Source of the DNA: Bacteroidota bacterium | GTDB taxonomy: Bacteria > Bacteroidota > Bacteroidia > 2-12-FULL-35-15 | Assembly (NCBI GenBank): GCA_023251835.1 | Contig: JAHEXZ010000032.1 | Span: forward strand, 1-48,979 | Reading direction: 5' to 3' | DNA: 48,979 bases | In this document: positions 40,171-48,808 of the stretch, in pieces | Layout of the letters: the number at the start of each line of letters is the position of its first letter | How positions within the stretch are numbered: the stretch's first letter is position 1 | The notes under the pieces: model-generated | Seen by the model: only the letters and a program-made list of their open reading frames with translations | What the model was told of the DNA's origin: nothing | Database searches by the model: none | Position numbers and translations under genes: made by a program

Positions 40171-42366
40171 TTATACTCTGACTCCAATCACACAAATATC
40201 ATCCACCTGTTCTAAACCGGCTTTCCAATTTTCAATAAAATCGTTTAAATACTGCTGTTGCTCCTGCAGTGTTTTTTGTTGAATGGAGAGAAGTATTTCT
40301 TTAAATTTTTTTGTCATCAGTTTTTTTCTGTTTTCACCGCCAAATTGGTCGGCATAACCATCTGTAAAAATATAAAAGGTATCGCCTTGTTGCAATTGTA
40401 TTTCATGGGTTTCAAAATGGGCATCATCAGGTGTAAGCCCGCCTATAGCTTTTTTAGTTGCTTTTATTTCTATTAGTTCTGTTTGACCTTTTCTGACAAA
40501 CCAAAGAGGGCGGTTTGCTCCGGCATATTGCAACTTCATCGTTACTTTGTCAAAAATACAATAAGCAATATCCATCCCATCACGACTTTGGGAATCTGTG
40601 AGCTGCTGTTTTAATGATAGTTTTACTAATCTGTTCAAATGACTTAATATGCCAGATGGGTTATTCCACTGATGCTTATGAAAAATTTCATTCAATAAAA
40701 CCGTTCCGATAAGACTCATAAAGGCTCCAGGAATACCATGGCCAGTGCAATCTACAGCCACAAAAAACAATTTATTATCCAGTTTTTCCAACCAGTAAAA
40801 ATCCCCGCTCACCACGTCACGCGGTTTGTATAAACTAAATGAATCCGTCCACAAATCTTGTATTTTAAAGAGAGGCAAAACCGAATCTTGTATGTGTTTT
40901 GCATATGCAATGCTTTGACCTATTTCGTGATTTTTTTCATCTACTAATTCTTTTTGTTTTTCTACCTCTGCTTTTTGTTGGGTAATGATAACATTTGCAG
41001 TTTGTTTTTGCCTGTAGCTTCTGAAAATAAAAAGAGCAAGCAACAAAACAAGCCCAAAACCAATGATAAAATAATTGCGCTGCAAGCGTTGATGTTTTAG
41101 TTCTTCTACAGCAATAGCATCCTTTTTATCTTGTTCAGCTTTTTCCTTTGCTTGTTTTGTTTCAAACTCAAAATTCATTTCGGAGCGAACTATTTTTTTT
41201 GTGTTTTCTTCATTAAAAAGGCTGTCTTTTGCTGCTATATATTTTTTGTAATGTTCTAGTGCTTTGTCGGGTTGGTGAGTTTGGGTGTAGAGTTCGGCCA
41301 TGGAATTTTCTAATCGCATTGTAAAGTCCAATAACCCAATGCTGTCGCAGCGTGTCAGTGCTCTTTGCAAATATTCTTTGGCTTGTTTGTATCTTTTTGT
41401 TTCAGTGTAAAGCAAACCTATGTTGCCAAGGTGACGGGTAATTTCATTTTTATCTCCCAACTCTTCCGCCATTTTCAACGCCTTGAAATAATGGTCTAAT
41501 GCTTTTTTGTACAAGGAATCAGCACCGGCAATATCTTGCGGAAACTTCGCTGCGTTCGCTTGGTCATTATAGCAAGCTCCGATGCTTCCGATGGTGACAG
41601 CAATTGCATATTTATTTCCTAACTCTTCCGCCATTTTCAATGCCTTGAAATAATAGTCCAATGCTTTGGTATAGTCGCCTTGGTTAGAATAGATATCCCC
41701 GATGTTGCTAAGGTTCAATGCAATTGTATTTTTATTTCTCAACCCTTCGGCTATTTTCAATGCTTTAAAATAATAGTCCAATGCTTTTGGATAATCGCCC
41801 TGAGCCTTATAGATAAGTCCGATGTTGCCAAGTATTGCGGAAATTCCTTTTTTATCTTCCAATTCTTCTGCCATTTTTAATGCTTTGAAATAATAGTCCA
41901 ATGCTTTAGTATGGTCGTCTTTGTGATCGTAAGCAACTCCAATGTTACCGAGTATTACCGAAATTCCTTTTTTGTCATTTAATGATTCCATTATTTTAAG
42001 AGCTTTGAAACAATAGTCAAGAGCAAGAGAGTTGTTGCCTTTGAAAAGATGAAGCGTTCCAAGATTAGAATAGGATTTTGAAATGAAACGCATCCTCACA
42101 TCTTTCCCAATGGAAGGTGGAAGGTACTCTGCTATATTCAGTGCTTGAGTAATTAGTATAATTGCGGTATCAGGGTTATTATTTTTAAGTTTTTTAGCGA
42201 GCGCATTGAGTGTATTTATTCGGCTGGTGTCGTGGAGGCAGTTTGTATAAAGCAGGGAACGCAGGGAATCAATGGTTGGGCCTCGCTCGCCACCTGTTTT
42301 ATCTTGTTGAGCAAGAGAGGTGAACCAGCAAAGGAAAATCGCAAATAGTAGAAAAAAATATTTCAT
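40171..42366 (-). CDS. TPR-repeat sensor with SpoIIE/PP2C-type phosphatase domain
   Basis: A 731-residue membrane-anchored signalling protein. A signal peptide (MKYFFLLFAIFLCWFTSLAQ) leads to an extracytoplasmic series of about eight TPR motifs (about 50-390), several nearly identical (KALDYYFKALKMAEELGNK). A single membrane helix (YFIIGFGLVLLLALFIF, about 432-450) and a coiled coil (QQKAEVEKQKELVDEKNHEIGQ) connect to the cytoplasmic phosphatase (about 500-731). PP2C/SpoIIE metal motifs are DVVSGDFYW, VDCTGHGIPGAFMS, DGMDIAYCIF, IFTDGYADQFGG and the terminal VDDICVIGV. It should dephosphorylate a Ser/Thr-phosphorylated anti-sigma antagonist or similar partner; no partner is adjacent. One repeat carries an insertion (NDQANAAKFPQDIAGAD). 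Confidence 0.92.
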   Translation of the reverse strand: MKYFFLLFAIFLCWFTSLAQQDKTGGERGPTIDSLRSLLYTNCLHDTSRINTLNALAKKLKNNNPDTAIILITQALNIAEYLPPSIGKDVRMRFISKSYSNLGTLHLFKGNNSLALDYCFKALKIMESLNDKKGISVILGNIGVAYDHKDDHTKALDYYFKALKMAEELEDKKGISAILGNIGLIYKAQGDYPKALDYYFKALKIAEGLRNKNTIALNLSNIGDIYSNQGDYTKALDYYFKALKMAEELGNKYAIAVTIGSIGACYNDQANAAKFPQDIAGADSLYKKALDHYFKALKMAEELGDKNEITRHLGNIGLLYTETKRYKQAKEYLQRALTRCDSIGLLDFTMRLENSMAELYTQTHQPDKALEHYKKYIAAKDSLFNEENTKKIVRSEMNFEFETKQAKEKAEQDKKDAIAVEELKHQRLQRNYFIIGFGLVLLLALFIFRSYRQKQTANVIITQQKAEVEKQKELVDEKNHEIGQSIAYAKHIQDSVLPLFKIQDLWTDSFSLYKPRDVVSGDFYWLEKLDNKLFFVAVDCTGHGIPGAFMSLIGTVLLNEIFHKHQWNNPSGILSHLNRLVKLSLKQQLTDSQSRDGMDIAYCIFDKVTMKLQYAGANRPLWFVRKGQTELIEIKATKKAIGGLTPDDAHFETHEIQLQQGDTFYIFTDGYADQFGGENRKKLMTKKFKEILLSIQQKTLQEQQQYLNDFIENWKAGLEQVDDICVIGVRV

Positions 42367-42415: not shown

Positions 42416-43438
42416 TCATACTAGTAATTCCAAACTTACCCGAACAATTTCTCCCATATTTTTACTCTTTAAAAATGGCTGGTAAGAATAATGAGCAGCT
42501 AATTCTTTTTTCAAAGTGTCTATTTTTTCAGGAAGTGAAAGTGTATCCATACACATAGCGTCCAACAAACGATCAGTTCTACGATGTGCGCGTTTAATAC
42601 GTTTGGCAATCAATGTACGTTCTTCCTGCTGATATTGCTGAACTGTTTCCGGATTTAAATGTTTAATGCTGATGTCTACGTAGTAATTGTTCTCTTTAAA
42701 ATACTGCGGCATATAGATTCGTTTTCTGCTTTCATAACATTGCTGGTCAAAGTCAATTGCACGGAATCTGTATTGTACATCATCAAAATCCGCAGTTACA
42801 TCAATCACAAAGTTATAAGCACGCATATCGCCTAATAATCTTACAAAACAACGTTCATTGAATTTAACAAACTCTTTGGCCATACGTACTTCATTCAATT
42901 CAAGCCATTGATAATCCTGCTTGGTAAACATATCTCCCGGAATGCCTGCAATATGTTCTTCCACCAACGTATCCTTATCTACCAGGAAGTTAATACGGTT
43001 AGGAGATAGCAAATCCTCCAGCTCTAATCCATATACACGGGATGCATCTGCAATTTTTACATAGTAATAATCATGGTTGTCATTATATTGATTTACAATA
43101 CGTATGCGGAAAGGTTTAGAATTGCCAAAAGGGCAGTAATCAACTCTGTCTACCTGTAAGTGTTCCATCAGTGATTCATTGCCATCAAATTTCATCATAG
43201 CATACATTTTCACTAAGCGGTAATGTATATCTTCCATTTCGGAGGGTTGAAAAAGCACTGTTTTCCATAGTGTATCCTTTCCATGTTTATCCTTTTGAGG
43301 AATAATGGAAAAATATCGGAGCAGTTCACTGTATGTAAAAGGTATTTTTACAAGACGGTTATAGTTAAACAAATAGTCTTTCAGCGGTTCGCTGACCGGA
43401 AAAAATAATTTCTTTTTAGAAATGATATTTGTATCCAT
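42416..43438 (-). CDS. Conserved hypothetical protein with protein-kinase-like motifs, linked to parC
   Basis: No named family recognised. The 340-residue soluble protein shows spaced elements of a kinase/phosphotransferase fold: a strand with lysine, YYYVKIAD (Lys128); a following helix region with Glu (DTLVEEHIAG); a catalytic-loop-like RLLGDMRAYNFVID in which Asp204 and Asn209 have the D-x4-N spacing of HipA, APH and protein kinases; and FRAIDFDQQ (Asp229/Asp231) twenty residues later, like the metal-binding DFG/DFD segment. No glycine-rich loop is obvious. The C-terminus is basic and helical (IAKRIKRAHRRTDRLLDAM). It starts 53 bp after parC on the same strand, separated by a hairpin. The kinase assignment is my inference. 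Confidence 0.7.
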   Translation of the reverse strand: MDTNIISKKKLFFPVSEPLKDYLFNYNRLVKIPFTYSELLRYFSIIPQKDKHGKDTLWKTVLFQPSEMEDIHYRLVKMYAMMKFDGNESLMEHLQVDRVDYCPFGNSKPFRIRIVNQYNDNHDYYYVKIADASRVYGLELEDLLSPNRINFLVDKDTLVEEHIAGIPGDMFTKQDYQWLELNEVRMAKEFVKFNERCFVRLLGDMRAYNFVIDVTADFDDVQYRFRAIDFDQQCYESRKRIYMPQYFKENNYYVDISIKHLNPETVQQYQQEERTLIAKRIKRAHRRTDRLLDAMCMDTLSLPEKIDTLKKELAAHYSYQPFLKSKNMGEIVRVSLELLV

Positions 43439-43459
43439 GACTATTTAAATTAAAATAAA

Positions 43460-43479
43460 CCCTCCCCAATAGGGGAGGG
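43460..43479 (-). terminator. G+C-rich hairpin after parC
   Basis: On the minus strand CCCTCCCC, loop TATT, GGGGAGGG is followed by TTTATTTTAATTTAAAT, a good intrinsic terminator starting 13 bp after the parC stop. The preceding ACCCCACCCTGCCCTCCCC belongs to a dispersed repeat type also seen at 48838-48895. Confidence 0.75.
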
Positions 43480-43491
43480 CAGGGTGGGGTT

Positions 43492-46212
43492 TTAAAACTC
43501 CAGCGTTCCCTGCATTTCTTCCGGGTTATCGTGCTTTTTTTTCTTCTTTTTTTCTTCCGAAGGCAGTTTTATTTCCGCATTGATCATCTGGTCAATGGAA
43601 ACAACAGGTTTTTCAGTAGATTTTTCGGGAGCATTGGCTTTTTTCAAGGCTTCCAATGGCGACATACCGCTTTCCTCAAACTCTTCCAGCACTTCTTCTT
43701 CTATTGGCACTTCAACAGGCGGCAACATGTTAATCTCTTTTATTTTTGAGTAGGAAAGTTTATTACCTTTTGCTTTATACCCTTTTACAGCTATAAAATC
43801 AACTAAATTGATTTGTTCATTTGGTAGTTCCTTGTCTTTTACTTTACTGAATTTTAGTTCAACTACCGGGTTAGCCTCTGTAGTTGCCAGCTCTAAGCGC
43901 GAACCTTCTGTTTCACTAATGAATAATACTTTTTTATCTGCACTTTCAACTAAGAAACGTTTTACAAAATAAGTTTTACTTTCACCATCTAAATAAATTG
44001 CTGTTAGCGGTTTGTTCGGCCTCCATTTTTCTATCAACACCATATCTTCATCAAAGTGGGTTGCCAGGTCAAAGCCGGTGAGTTTATAATAGCCGCTTTG
44101 AGTAATGGTTAATATTTTATCATCCGATGCAAAGCTGCCAAGGAAAGTACCGCGTTTATCTGTATTCAGGCGTTGTACAGTATCGTCAAACCATATATCC
44201 AAAGCACCAAGGGTTGATAAACCTTTTTGTTTCAGTACAATTTTTTTAACAGCATATTTTGTTACCACATTTCCCATAGAATTGCGGCCTTTGATGGCTA
44301 AATCTGCAAAATTAAGGTCCCACTGTACTTTACGCAGTCCTGGCATAGGTTTTAACTGTACTTCCACAATTTCTGATTCACCGTTTGGATTAGCAGTAAA
44401 ATAAAGCACTTCCGAACCCTTTGTCCCCTTCGTTAAATCATATTGTTTATCGCGGGTGATACCGGTAACCGGGAAGCGTTTCATAAAAACACTTCCTTTA
44501 GTGCCATCCCGGTAAATCATATTGTATATTGTACGCTCATCATTCTTTTTATATACGGCAATATGGATAAGGTCTTTTCCTACAAAAGCTTTATCCTGAA
44601 CCTTAGTAACCATCATTGTTCCATCCTTTCGGAAAACAACAATATCATCAATATCTGAACAGTCAGAAATAAATTCATCTTTCTTTAATCCAAAGCCTGC
44701 AAATCCTTCCTCACGGTTCACATACAGTTTTTCATTTGCAATCACAACACGTGTCGCAACAATATTTTCAAACGATTTTATTTCTGTTTTACGCTCTCGA
44801 CCTATACCATATTTCTTTTTAAGGTTTTTGAAATATTCGATGGCATACTCAATTAAGTTGGCAAGATGATGATCTATCTCTTTGATACGTGCATCCAAGG
44901 CTTTCATCTTTTCATCCGCTTTGGCAGAGTCAAAACGGGTGATACGTATCATTGGTATCTGTGTCAGTTTCTCATAATCATCATTGGTGGTTTCGCGAAT
45001 AAATTGTTTTTTATATTTCGTAAAACGCCCGTCCAAATAACTGAACAAAGAAGGTTTATCCGAGTAATGTTTAAAATCAATATACATCTCATCCCTGATA
45101 AATATCTTCTCTAATGAAGCAAACATATACGATTCCTGCAATTCTGTTTTTTCAATTTCCAGTTCACGTTTTAATAATTCCAGTGTTTTCTGCGTGGAAA
45201 TTTTAAGCATTTCATTTACGCCTACAAAATGCGGTTTATCATTTTCAATGATACAGGCATTTGGAGAAATGGATACTTCACAATCTGTAAAAGCATATAA
45301 TGCGTCAATGGTTTTATCCGGTGAAATACCTGGTACTAAGTGAATTACTATTTCAACATTTTCTGCAGTATTGTCTTCTACTTTACGTATTTTAATCTTG
45401 CCCTTGTCATTTGCAGCAATTATGCTGTCAATCAATGAACCTGTAGTAGTACCAAATGGAATCTCATTAATCACCAGCGTTTTTTTATCCAACTGCGAAA
45501 TTTTTGCACGTACACGTATTTTTCCACCGCGTAAACCATTATTATAACCTGAGAAGTCGGCAGTCCCTGCCGTTGGAAAATCGGGGAGTATGTCGGTACG
45601 TTTGCCGCGTAATACGGCAATAGAAGCATCTATCAGTTCATTAAAATTGTGTGGCAGAATTTTGCAGGCTAAGCCAACAGCAATACCTTCAACGCCTTGT
45701 GCAAGGAGTAATGGAAATTTTACAGGCAGGGTTTCCGGCTCTTTATTACGTCCGTCATAACTTGCCAGCCATTTTGTTGTTTTTGGGTTAAATACTACAT
45801 CGTGCGCAAATTTTGAAAGACGTGCTTCGATATAACGCGGTGCGGCTGCCCTGTCGCCCGTTAAAATATTGCCCCAGTTTCCTTGTGTATCAATCAGCAA
45901 ATCTTTTTGTCCCAATGCTACCAAGGCATCACCGATGGACATATCGCCATGAGGGTGATACTTCATTGTATGCCCGATGATGTTTGCTACTTTATTGTAA
46001 CGCCCGTCATCCAGCTCATTCATGGCATGTAATATCCTGCGTTGCACAGGCTTTAGGCCATCTTCAATATAAGGCACGGCACGTTCAAGGATTACATAAG
46101 ATGCATAATCCAAAAACCAGTTTTCATACATGCCGGAAACATGAATTACATTGTGTAATTCTTCACCGCCTTCGCCATTTAATTCATCGTTTGTGTTTTC
46201 TTCGTTAATCAT
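43492..46212 (-). CDS. parC: DNA topoisomerase IV subunit A
   Basis: The DNA cleavage/rejoining subunit of type IIA topoisomerase; with ParE it decatenates daughter chromosomes. ERAVPYIEDGLKPVQRRILHAM opens the winged-helix domain. KYHPHGDMSIGDALV and NWGNILTGDRAAAPRYIEARLS contain the active-site tyrosine (APRYIE). LAQGVEGIAVGLACKILPHN and the GFGLKKDEF region follow. The C-terminal half (about 500-800) has beta-pinwheel-like blades, and the tail is acidic/lysine-rich (LPSEEKKKKKKHD, EMQGTLEF). The length of 906 residues is normal for Bacteroidota. I choose ParC over GyrA from its pairing with the ParE-type gene upstream and its divergent pinwheel. A toxin gene ends 35 bp before its start. 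Confidence 0.92.
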   Translation of the reverse strand: MINEENTNDELNGEGGEELHNVIHVSGMYENWFLDYASYVILERAVPYIEDGLKPVQRRILHAMNELDDGRYNKVANIIGHTMKYHPHGDMSIGDALVALGQKDLLIDTQGNWGNILTGDRAAAPRYIEARLSKFAHDVVFNPKTTKWLASYDGRNKEPETLPVKFPLLLAQGVEGIAVGLACKILPHNFNELIDASIAVLRGKRTDILPDFPTAGTADFSGYNNGLRGGKIRVRAKISQLDKKTLVINEIPFGTTTGSLIDSIIAANDKGKIKIRKVEDNTAENVEIVIHLVPGISPDKTIDALYAFTDCEVSISPNACIIENDKPHFVGVNEMLKISTQKTLELLKRELEIEKTELQESYMFASLEKIFIRDEMYIDFKHYSDKPSLFSYLDGRFTKYKKQFIRETTNDDYEKLTQIPMIRITRFDSAKADEKMKALDARIKEIDHHLANLIEYAIEYFKNLKKKYGIGRERKTEIKSFENIVATRVVIANEKLYVNREEGFAGFGLKKDEFISDCSDIDDIVVFRKDGTMMVTKVQDKAFVGKDLIHIAVYKKNDERTIYNMIYRDGTKGSVFMKRFPVTGITRDKQYDLTKGTKGSEVLYFTANPNGESEIVEVQLKPMPGLRKVQWDLNFADLAIKGRNSMGNVVTKYAVKKIVLKQKGLSTLGALDIWFDDTVQRLNTDKRGTFLGSFASDDKILTITQSGYYKLTGFDLATHFDEDMVLIEKWRPNKPLTAIYLDGESKTYFVKRFLVESADKKVLFISETEGSRLELATTEANPVVELKFSKVKDKELPNEQINLVDFIAVKGYKAKGNKLSYSKIKEINMLPPVEVPIEEEVLEEFEESGMSPLEALKKANAPEKSTEKPVVSIDQMINAEIKLPSEEKKKKKKHDNPEEMQGTLEF

Positions 46213-46247: not shown

Positions 46248-46556
46248 TCATTTTGTCAAAAATTCCAACAGTTTTTTAGGATCCTGTCTATTATCCCAAA
46301 ATCCTGTAATTATAATAAAATCGGGTGTGATTTTATAAAAAATGCTGAAGTGGCCAATTGAAGACATCCTGGTGTCGGGATAGTCGGTTAATTTGTAGGA
46401 TTCAGGATGGCTTAAAATCGTTTTGGTTTGTTTTGCAATAAGTTTAATTAATTTTTCTGCATATACAGTAGAGCCATTGTGTTTTGTCCAGAACTTTAAT
46501 ATTTCTCTCCTTTGTCTGGCTGCGGTTTCAGTCCAAACTACAGTTCTTTTAACCAT
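46248..46556 (-). CDS. RelE/ParE-family toxin
   Basis: A 102-residue type II toxin. Family features are WTETAARQRREILKFW at the N-terminus, IAKQTKTILSHPESYKLTDYPDTRM in the middle, and the strand SIFYKITPDFIIITGFWDNRQDPKKL, which is the C-terminal core of RelE/ParE toxins. Members act either as ribosome-dependent mRNA endonucleases or as gyrase poisons; sequence alone does not decide. Its start overlaps the end of the antitoxin gene by 19 bp, and parC begins 35 bp after its stop. Confidence 0.88.
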   Translation of the reverse strand: MVKRTVVWTETAARQRREILKFWTKHNGSTVYAEKLIKLIAKQTKTILSHPESYKLTDYPDTRMSSIGHFSIFYKITPDFIIITGFWDNRQDPKKLLEFLTK

Positions 46557-46780
46557 TTCAGATCGTCTTTGTCCAATTGTTTTTGAGAAATCAGTTTATC
46601 GGTCTTTATGTCTTTATCGCTTAATTTAAGCATCAGCACTTGTTCTTCACTTAGTTTTATTTTGTCTTGATCCGTATTACTACTTTCTACAAGTCGATAC
46701 AAAGCTGATAAAAAATCTTTATTTGAAATGGTTAAGAGTTTATCAATTATTCCGTTTCTTATATGATCAATTGTTGCCAT
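46538..46780 (-). CDS. Antitoxin of the RelE/ParE-type pair
   Basis: A short protein of about 80 residues from the preferred ATG at 46780 (MATIDHIRNGIIDKLLTISNKDF). The plan, with an N-terminal helix region followed by LSEEQVLMLKLSDKDI and LISQKQLDKDDLKWLKEL, is the one commonly found directly before RelE/ParE toxins in Bacteroidota. The acidic/amphipathic C-terminus would wrap the toxin. An in-frame ATG at 46846 would add 22 hydrophobic residues atypical for the family. It overlaps the toxin by 19 bp and the RhuM remnant upstream by 14 bp. Confidence 0.82.
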   Translation of the reverse strand: MATIDHIRNGIIDKLLTISNKDFLSALYRLVESSNTDQDKIKLSEEQVLMLKLSDKDIKTDKLISQKQLDKDDLKWLKEL

Positions 46781-46955
46781 GGTTGCTTTTATATTTAAAG
46801 TTAGCCAATATTTTTGAATTAAAGCGATTACTTGGTAGTTCTTCAAAATTATCCTTTAATCGCTGTTGGTTTAGAGCAAATCCTTTTATAAGATAATCTT
46901 TTAATCGTTGTGTTGCCCATTGACGGAATTGGATGCCTTGTTTCACCTCTATCAT
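46767..46955 (-). pseudogene. Fragment of a RhuM-family gene
   Basis: A 62-codon frame whose first half, KQGIQFRQWATQRLKDYLIKG followed by FALNQQRLKDN, matches the conserved core of RhuM-like proteins (usually over 300 residues: G-x-x-F-R-x-W-A-T-x-x-L-K-x-Y-L-x-K-G). The N-terminal part before this core and everything after QRLKDN are missing, and the last about 25 residues look unrelated. It begins with ATGA overlapping the parE stop by 4 bp. It is most likely a relic left by an insertion between parE and parC, possibly still translated. Confidence 0.7.
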
Positions 46956-48808
46956 TCACTCTCCACCAAATCCTTCTCTACCTTCAGATTCTCAATAATA
47001 AAATCCTGGCGTTCCGGTGTATTTTTACCCATATAATAGCCCAATAGCTCAACAATGCTTCTATCCTTACCAATAATTACAGGGTCTTTACGAATATCTT
47101 TTCCGATAAAATGTTTAAATTCATCTGGTGAAATCTCACCAAGTCCTTTAAATCGGGTAATTTCTGGCTTTGCACCTAATTTACTGATTGCGCTTCTTCT
47201 TTCTTCTTCGCTGTAACAATAAATGGTCTCTTTTTTATTTCGTACACGGAACAGAGGTGTTTGCAGGATATACACATGCCCGTTTTTTACAAGATCCGGG
47301 AAAAACTGAAGGAAAAATGTAAGTAACAGTAAACGAATGTGCATACCATCCACATCAGCATCTGTGGCAATTACAATATTGTTGTAACGAAGGTTTTCTA
47401 TGCCATCTTCAATGTTTAAAGCGGCCTGTAACAGGTTAAACTCTTCATTTTCATAAACAATTTTTTTTGTCAGACCAAAAGCGTTCAGTGGTTTTCCTTT
47501 CAGGCTGAATACAGCTTGTGTATTTACATCACGTGTTTTTGTAATAGAACCGCTTGCAGAATCTCCCTCACAAATAAATAAAGTAGAATCTAACTTACGT
47601 TCATCATTATTAGATGTTTTGTGAATACGACAATCGCGAAGCTTTTTGTTATGAAGGTTTGATTTCTTTGCCCGTTCACGTGCCAGCTTCTGTATGCCTT
47701 GTAAATCCTTACGTTCACGTTCGCTTTGCTGTATCTTTTGCAGAATAGCTTGTGCCATTTCCGGGTTCTTATGCAAAAAATTATCTAACTCAGTTTTTAA
47801 AAAATCACCAATAAAAGCCTTTACCGAAGGGCCTTTGGGGCCTATTTCCTGTGAACCTAATTTGGTTTTGGTTTGTGATTCAAAAACGGGTTCCTGTACT
47901 TTTATACTTACTGCAGCAATGATGGATGTACGTATATCTACCGCCTCAAAGTCCTTTTTGAAAAATTCACGAATGGTTTTCACTACTGCTTCACGAAAAG
48001 CTCCCTGATGGGTTCCACCTTGTGTGGTATGCTGCCCGTTTACAAACGAATAATACTCTTCACCATATTGCTGATTGCTATGTGTTATGGCCACTTCAAT
48101 ATCATAACCTTTTAAATGGATAGTAGGATATAATATAGGGCCGCTGATATTCTGTGTAAGCAAATCGAGCAAACCGTTTTCAGAATAAAATTTTTGCCCG
48201 TTATAGTTAATCGTTAAGCCGGTATTCAGATAGGCGTAGTTCCATAACATTTTCTCTACATACTCATTGATAAAATGGTAATTGCCGAAAATGCCTTCAT
48301 CAGGAGTAAAAGTAACAAGCGTTCCTTTGCGTGTGTCTGAAGCAACAATCTTTTCTTCTTTTAGGAGATTACCTTTTGAAAAAGCAGCTTCTTTTGTCTG
48401 GTCATCACGGAACGACTGAACTTTAAAATAGCTCGATAAGGCATTTACAGCTTTGGTTCCCACTCCATTTAAACCAACTGATTTTTTAAAAGCCTCTGAA
48501 TCATATTTAGCTCCCGTATTTATTTTAGAAACCACATCCACTACTTTTCCTAAAGGAATACCACGTCCATAGTCACGTACACGTGCGGTTTTCTCTTTGA
48601 TGGTAATATCAATGCTTTTTCCATTGCCCATCACAAATTCATCAATACAGTTATCAATAGTTTCTTTTAAGAGGATATAAATACCATCATCGGGTGAGGA
48701 GCCATCTCCCAGTTTTCCTATGTACATTCCGGGACGTAAACGTATATGCTCATTCCATTCCAGTGTACGTATGCTATCTTCCGTATATTTTACTTCTTTT
48801 TCTGCCAT
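46952..48808 (-). CDS. parE: DNA topoisomerase IV subunit B
   Basis: The ATPase subunit of type IIA topoisomerase. The GHKL ATPase has [23 protein letters not shown] (catalytic Glu and Asn), [11 protein letters not shown] and [15 protein letters not shown]. The transducer contains [17 protein letters not shown] (lysine/threonine region) and GPKG. The Toprim domain has [22 protein letters not shown] and [16 protein letters not shown]. The C-terminal signature [18 protein letters not shown] is present. 618 residues fits ParE rather than a longer GyrB. It is followed directly by the RhuM remnant and the toxin-antitoxin pair and then parC, all on one strand. Confidence 0.94.

Follow-up and report, generated by a model that had tools for sequence, protein, structure and literature searches.

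A Bacteroidota protein family with invariant kinase-like residues and a predicted kinase fold, encoded beside parC in one lineage

The window analysed here, a stretch of 48,979 nucleotides of DNA from a Bacteroidota genome, encodes a 340-residue protein of no evident family directly behind a gene for subunit A of topoisomerase IV. Two questions follow from this arrangement: whether the protein is a kinase, as the order of a few residues in an earlier note on the sequence had suggested, and whether its position beside parC ties it to topoisomerase IV or chromosome segregation, as that note had also proposed.

The locus and its neighbours

The features of the locus that bear on these questions are the following.

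40171-42366, minus strand: gene immediately downstream of the kinase-like one, for a protein with TPR repeats and a SpoIIE-type phosphatase domain at its C-terminus
42416-43438, minus strand: kinase-like protein of 340 residues, defined by the window's list of open reading frames, an AlphaFold2 model, Foldseek matches and an alignment of homologues
43459-43480, minus strand: terminator-like hairpin between parC and the kinase-like gene, with a 9 bp stem and a T-rich tail
43492-46212, minus strand: putative parC (topoisomerase IV subunit A), named from its sequence and its position near a parE-type gene; a neighbour only
46248-46556 and 46538-46846, minus strand: toxin-antitoxin pair of reading frames, a ParE-type toxin and a small overlapping upstream frame
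46952-48808, minus strand: gene for topoisomerase IV subunit B, near parC

The kinase-like gene lies downstream of parC, with 53 bp between the parC stop (43492) and its own start, so the statement that it directly follows parC is correct for the window; as a general rule it fails. An adjoining parC is found in five of the eight carriers in the window's genus (the window's own genome, G002, G019, G021 and G027), while the other three (G015, G024 and G029) have no ParC relative next to the gene, and the adjacency was seen in no Bacteroidota locus examined outside that genus. In two loci of Puniceicoccaceae metagenome-assembled genomes (MAGs), a ParC/GyrA-like gene of 29-36% identity lies four open reading frames upstream. 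The hairpin, one arm of which is AACCCCACCCTGCCCTCCCC at 43472-43491, occurs as a single copy in the window's genome, which rules out an abundant genome-wide repeat, and it is absent from the two relatives tested. Across 57 homologue groups, the gene keeps no general operon partner, and the neighbours are lineage-specific, including an MFS transporter, DUF3817, a glycosyltransferase, an ABC transporter, a metallo-beta-lactamase/rhodanese protein, fructose-1,6-bisphosphate aldolase and urocanase. The kinase-like gene stands alone, and its position beside parC is incidental, an accident of one lineage; parC is not judged to be a functional part of the kinase-like system.

Several other arrangements were observed around these genes. 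The TPR-SpoIIE gene has no relative at that site in the other loci of the genus, apart from a TPR match of 23% in one of them (L023). Between parC and the gene for topoisomerase IV subunit B lies the ParE-type toxin (PF05016, E 3e-9) of the type II toxin-antitoxin pair, and the small overlapping frame upstream of it is probably the antitoxin; the two topoisomerase genes adjoin each other in one relative (L020), and in another (L018) a different frame of 297 residues separates them. At two loci (L085 and L146), two clpP genes and clpX enclose the kinase-like gene, all on the same strand. The genome of L146 (G146:C3) carries an ordinary copy (L147) too, and L146 is the second and more diverged of the two, with identities of 39% to the window protein and 53% to L085. 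Both L146 and L085 keep all catalytic residues, and the gene may be linked to ClpXP in this lineage.

Conserved residues and distribution of the family

The kinase-like signature, consisting of K128, GD(203-204)xxxxN209 and IDFD, is present in the window protein as the earlier note had described it, except that the last motif, placed there at 229-231, runs from I228 through D229 and F230 to D231. The candidate functional elements, with their counts in an alignment of 171 distinct homologues reaching down to 39% identity, are as follows.

43118-43129, minus strand: FGNS (104-107), beta1-beta2 loop and candidate nucleotide-binding loop, a putative P-loop
43055-43057, minus strand: K128, candidate ATP-binding lysine on beta3 (strand 121-129), equivalent to PKA K72; 171/171
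43016-43024, minus strand: E139-L-E141, candidate alphaC glutamate (counterpart of E91), in the helix 132-144 after beta3
42944-42961, minus strand: E160-EHIAG, candidate hinge after beta5 (strand 157-161); E160 and H162 each 171/171
42812-42832, minus strand: G203-D204-xxxx-N209, catalytic loop; G203, D204 and N209 each 171/171
42746-42757, minus strand: I228-D229-F230-D231, equivalent to DFG, with D229 as candidate Mg-binding aspartate; D229, F230 and D231 each 171/171
42689-42745, minus strand: residues 232-250 (QQCYE.....Y.PQ.F..N), conserved segment after DFD and candidate activation or substrate loop

Six residues (K128, D204, N209, D229, F230 and D231) are thus invariant in the 171 homologues, as they are in all 89 sequences of a smaller alignment, and the conservation of Lys128, Asp204, Asn209 and Asp229 on which the original reading depended is complete. 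Around the FGNS loop, C102, N106, P109 and R111 do not vary, and Q232, Y242 and N250 are likewise fixed in the segment after IDFD. Glutamate occupies position 139 in 168 and position 141 in 170 of the 171 sequences, the remainder being aspartate. In nearly all members, the catalytic loop reads either GDMRxxN or GDMHxxN, the latter in 58/171. When the family is set against the ten key residues of the PKL superfamily, which are those of Kannan et al. 2007 (PMC1821047), in a comparison that leaves out P104, H158 and D220, the counterparts of K72, D166, N171 and D184 are strictly conserved and that of E91 nearly so; D204 and N209 correspond to D166 and N171 of the PKL catalytic loop, with the same spacing of +5. 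The histidine of the HxD motif (H164) is not kept, and an invariant Leu202 stands in its place. The pattern GDx4N..[ILV]DF occurs in one of 1254 unrelated neighbouring proteins used as a control, and by this measure of sequence the catalytic-like pattern exceeds chance. Values of dN between close relatives are 0.08-0.19, with dS close to saturation or past it, and therefore the protein is under strong purifying selection.

The scan of GTDB genomes yielded at least 589 confirmed relatives. The gene is carried, nearly always as one copy, by 99 of 395 sampled Bacteroidota genomes and by 52 of 171 genera, among them Hymenobacter, Cytophaga, Spirosoma and Reichenbachiella; it is patchy in the window's genus, where 8 of 36 genomes have it. 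The protein tree is broadly, not strictly, taxonomic. The gene is chromosomal, and an origin from phages, plasmids or viruses was rejected, as no homologue was found on the plasmids, phages or viral contigs searched. Members in MAGs labelled as Verrucomicrobiota and Gammaproteobacteria (L093, L094, L097 and L047) branch among Bacteroidota in the tree, a placement that may reflect mis-binning or transfer. One further locus (L202, G304:C1:3158145-3158407) consists only of two family fragments with stop codons and is apparently a decayed copy, which suggests that the gene can be lost.

Predicted fold and proposed activity

The AlphaFold2 model of the window protein, built from 89 family sequences, has a pLDDT of 88.5 and a pTM of 0.88; that of the 39%-identical paralogue L146 has a pLDDT of 94.9, a pTM of 0.91 and an identical order of elements, although the alignments behind the two models have most rows in common and the models are not fully independent. 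In the window model, with element names assigned by us, strands 94-101 and 110-116 form beta1-2, K128 lies on strand 121-129 (beta3), and the helix 132-144 that bears E139 and E141 (alphaC) follows. Strands 151-154 and 157-161 (beta4-5) lead into the hinge EEHIAG and then into helix 183-199 (alphaE), after which the loop LLGDMRAYN places D204-N209 between this helix and strand 210-216. A hairpin spans 210-227, and D229 comes straight after strand 221-227 in IDFD. The C-terminal part consists of a flexible yet conserved segment after IDFD, in which residues 236-242 have low confidence in the window model and are folded in the paralogue model, and of C-terminal helices. The predicted secondary-structure elements are in kinase order.

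Foldseek searches against the PDB at E<=1e-3 gave 53 matches for the window model and 18 for the paralogue model, and the best 50 listed per model are all kinases or pseudokinases. The PI3-kinase Vps34 is the first match for both models (E 2.6e-5 and 6.9e-5, probability 1.00), PI3K-alpha, mTOR or SMG1 lie near the top of both lists, and ordinary protein kinases are also among the top matches; in a viral library, the top named matches are mainly kinases. With low TM-scores of about 0.2-0.42 and a large rmsd, the likeness to kinases extends to the core topology and falls short of a close fold. The predicted structure has the two-lobed kinase fold of the PKL superfamily, and here the two models and the Foldseek matches bear out what had been expected from the sequence.

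The computations thus establish that the family exists, that its catalytic residues are invariant and that a predicted two-lobed fold places these residues in the expected elements. The explanation that we favour with some confidence is that of an ATP-dependent phosphotransferase belonging to a divergent, unnamed PKL family and encoded by a gene that stands alone. It is probably an active enzyme, as predicted from the intact catalytic residues. K128, assisted by E139 or E141 in the next helix, would hold the alpha and beta phosphates of ATP, D229 (and N209) would bind Mg2+, and D204 in the GDM[R/H]xxN loop would serve as the catalytic base. Segment 232-250 and the C-terminal helices (251-340) may choose the substrate, and the very strong conservation of the segment suggests that there is a single dedicated substrate. 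Our first guess for its class would be a cytosolic protein, and the next a small molecule or lipid. Evidence that counts against the kinase reading consists of the silence of sequence profiles, the low TM-scores and the replacement of the HxD histidine by Leu202. A more far-reaching proposal, which we hold only tentatively, is that these are unrecognised, active protein kinases found across the phylum, nearest in fold to PI3K/PIKK and regulating a single conserved core process by way of a dedicated substrate, independently of two-component systems and HipA-type toxins.

Among the other readings, an enzyme of PKL fold that uses ATP otherwise than for protein phosphorylation, as a kinase of small molecules or lipid headgroups, in AMPylation as SelO does or in glutamylation as SidJ does, seems unlikely, although some evidence speaks for it. 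Lipid kinases of the PI3K type are the best fold matches of both models, the GDMHxxN form of the loop resembles the loops of small-molecule and lipid kinases, and kinases of small molecules (PMC1821047) belong to the PKL superfamily, as do families that carry out AMPylation and glutamylation (PMC9758233). This reading is weakened by the lack of a conserved metabolic partner among the neighbouring genes, and by the presence of PI3K-related protein kinases (mTOR and SMG1) and ordinary protein kinases among the same top matches. That the fold might instead serve, without catalytic activity, as a scaffold or a sensor of ATP, the pseudokinase half of the original suggestion, is improbable, even though Pan3 and the JH2 domains of JAK2 and TYK2 are among the structural matches and the HxD histidine is absent. 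Pseudokinase families usually lose at least one core catalytic residue, and none has been lost in the 171 sequences; because conservation is complete, an active enzyme is the likelier of the two.

It is very improbable that the protein is not a kinase and that its residues and model mimic a kinase core by chance or convergence; the empty sequence searches and low TM-scores would fit such a view, but two high-confidence models match kinases only, among the best 50 PDB matches, and the invariant residues lie in the right order and in the right structural elements. That the protein is a regulator linked with topoisomerase IV or with chromosome segregation is extremely improbable. The adjacent parC in the window and in four relatives of the genus would speak for it, as would, weakly, the ParC/GyrA-like gene near the two Puniceicoccaceae loci. 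Linkage to parC was nevertheless rejected as a functional clue, since among the Bacteroidota loci examined it is confined to one genus, and even there to part of the carriers, since the neighbours elsewhere are unrelated, and since a terminator-like hairpin separates the two genes.

Under the favoured explanation, a phosphotransferase of a divergent PKL family, about a quarter of the sampled Bacteroidota genomes encode a strongly conserved protein with a complete kinase-like active site that is unannotated in the libraries searched. Should it prove active, the bacterial kinome would gain a family, and a large environmental phylum a signalling or metabolic enzyme that can be tested; the case also shows that entire kinase-like families still escape profile libraries.

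Comparison with known kinase families

The description of the protein as uncharacterised holds: no family model in Pfam, NCBIfam or PADLOC recognises it, searches of the PDB by sequence and by profile returned nothing relevant, and no paper on the family was found among the open-access literature searched. None of the family members is convincingly recognised by Pfam or NCBIfam, the scattered matches of single members being unrelated noise, and no sequence-profile method ties the protein to any of the kinase families compared. For profile-profile comparison, Bacteroidota alignments of HipA, APH and CotH served as partners, with a null calibrated on 34 unrelated families (best E 0.047); the Kdo kinase family was dropped as a comparator, as its Bacteroidota matches were mostly short stretches in long frames and too weak for an alignment.

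HipA (PF07804) shares the D-x4-N loop, which aligns in register (DDHxKN against GDMRxYN), but the hhalign match is not significant (E 0.25, probability 0.2%), there is no Pfam match, and no small antitoxin-like partner (HipB/HipS-like) is conserved across the 57 groups. In the window, the gene is flanked by parC and the TPR-SpoIIE gene, without a HipB/HipS-like antitoxin, and two separate true HipA_C proteins are encoded elsewhere in the genome. The GD-x4-N loop of APH (PF01636) is likewise in register, yet its E of 0.027 is not significant against the null, and no member has a Pfam match. By sequence, the protein belongs to neither HipA nor APH. CotH (PF08757), common in Bacteroidota, is also a divergent bacterial PKL kinase, but shows no similarity to the family in profile-profile comparison (E 0.84) and no Pfam match.

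The PI3K/PIKK catalytic domain (PF00454; Vps34, PI3K-alpha, mTOR and SMG1) is the best structural match of both models, and PI3K has the catalytic motifs GDxxxxN and IDF in the order found in the family; it differs in that no profile match to PF00454 was obtained and the TM-score is about 0.4. The window's genome and all 198 Bacteroidota genomes searched lack PF00454 itself. PI3K, AlphaK and IDHK were placed in the PKL superfamily on key residues and/or structure, without further sequence similarity (PMC1821047), and the present family resembles them in being placed there without wider sequence similarity, while it differs from each of them and appears to be missing from that census. With the key residues and a predicted fold in place and no sequence family to receive it, the protein is therefore filed as a new, unnamed and divergent family of the PKL superfamily, distinct from HipA, APH, CotH and PI3K: a new family within a known superfamily, common, constrained and unannotated.
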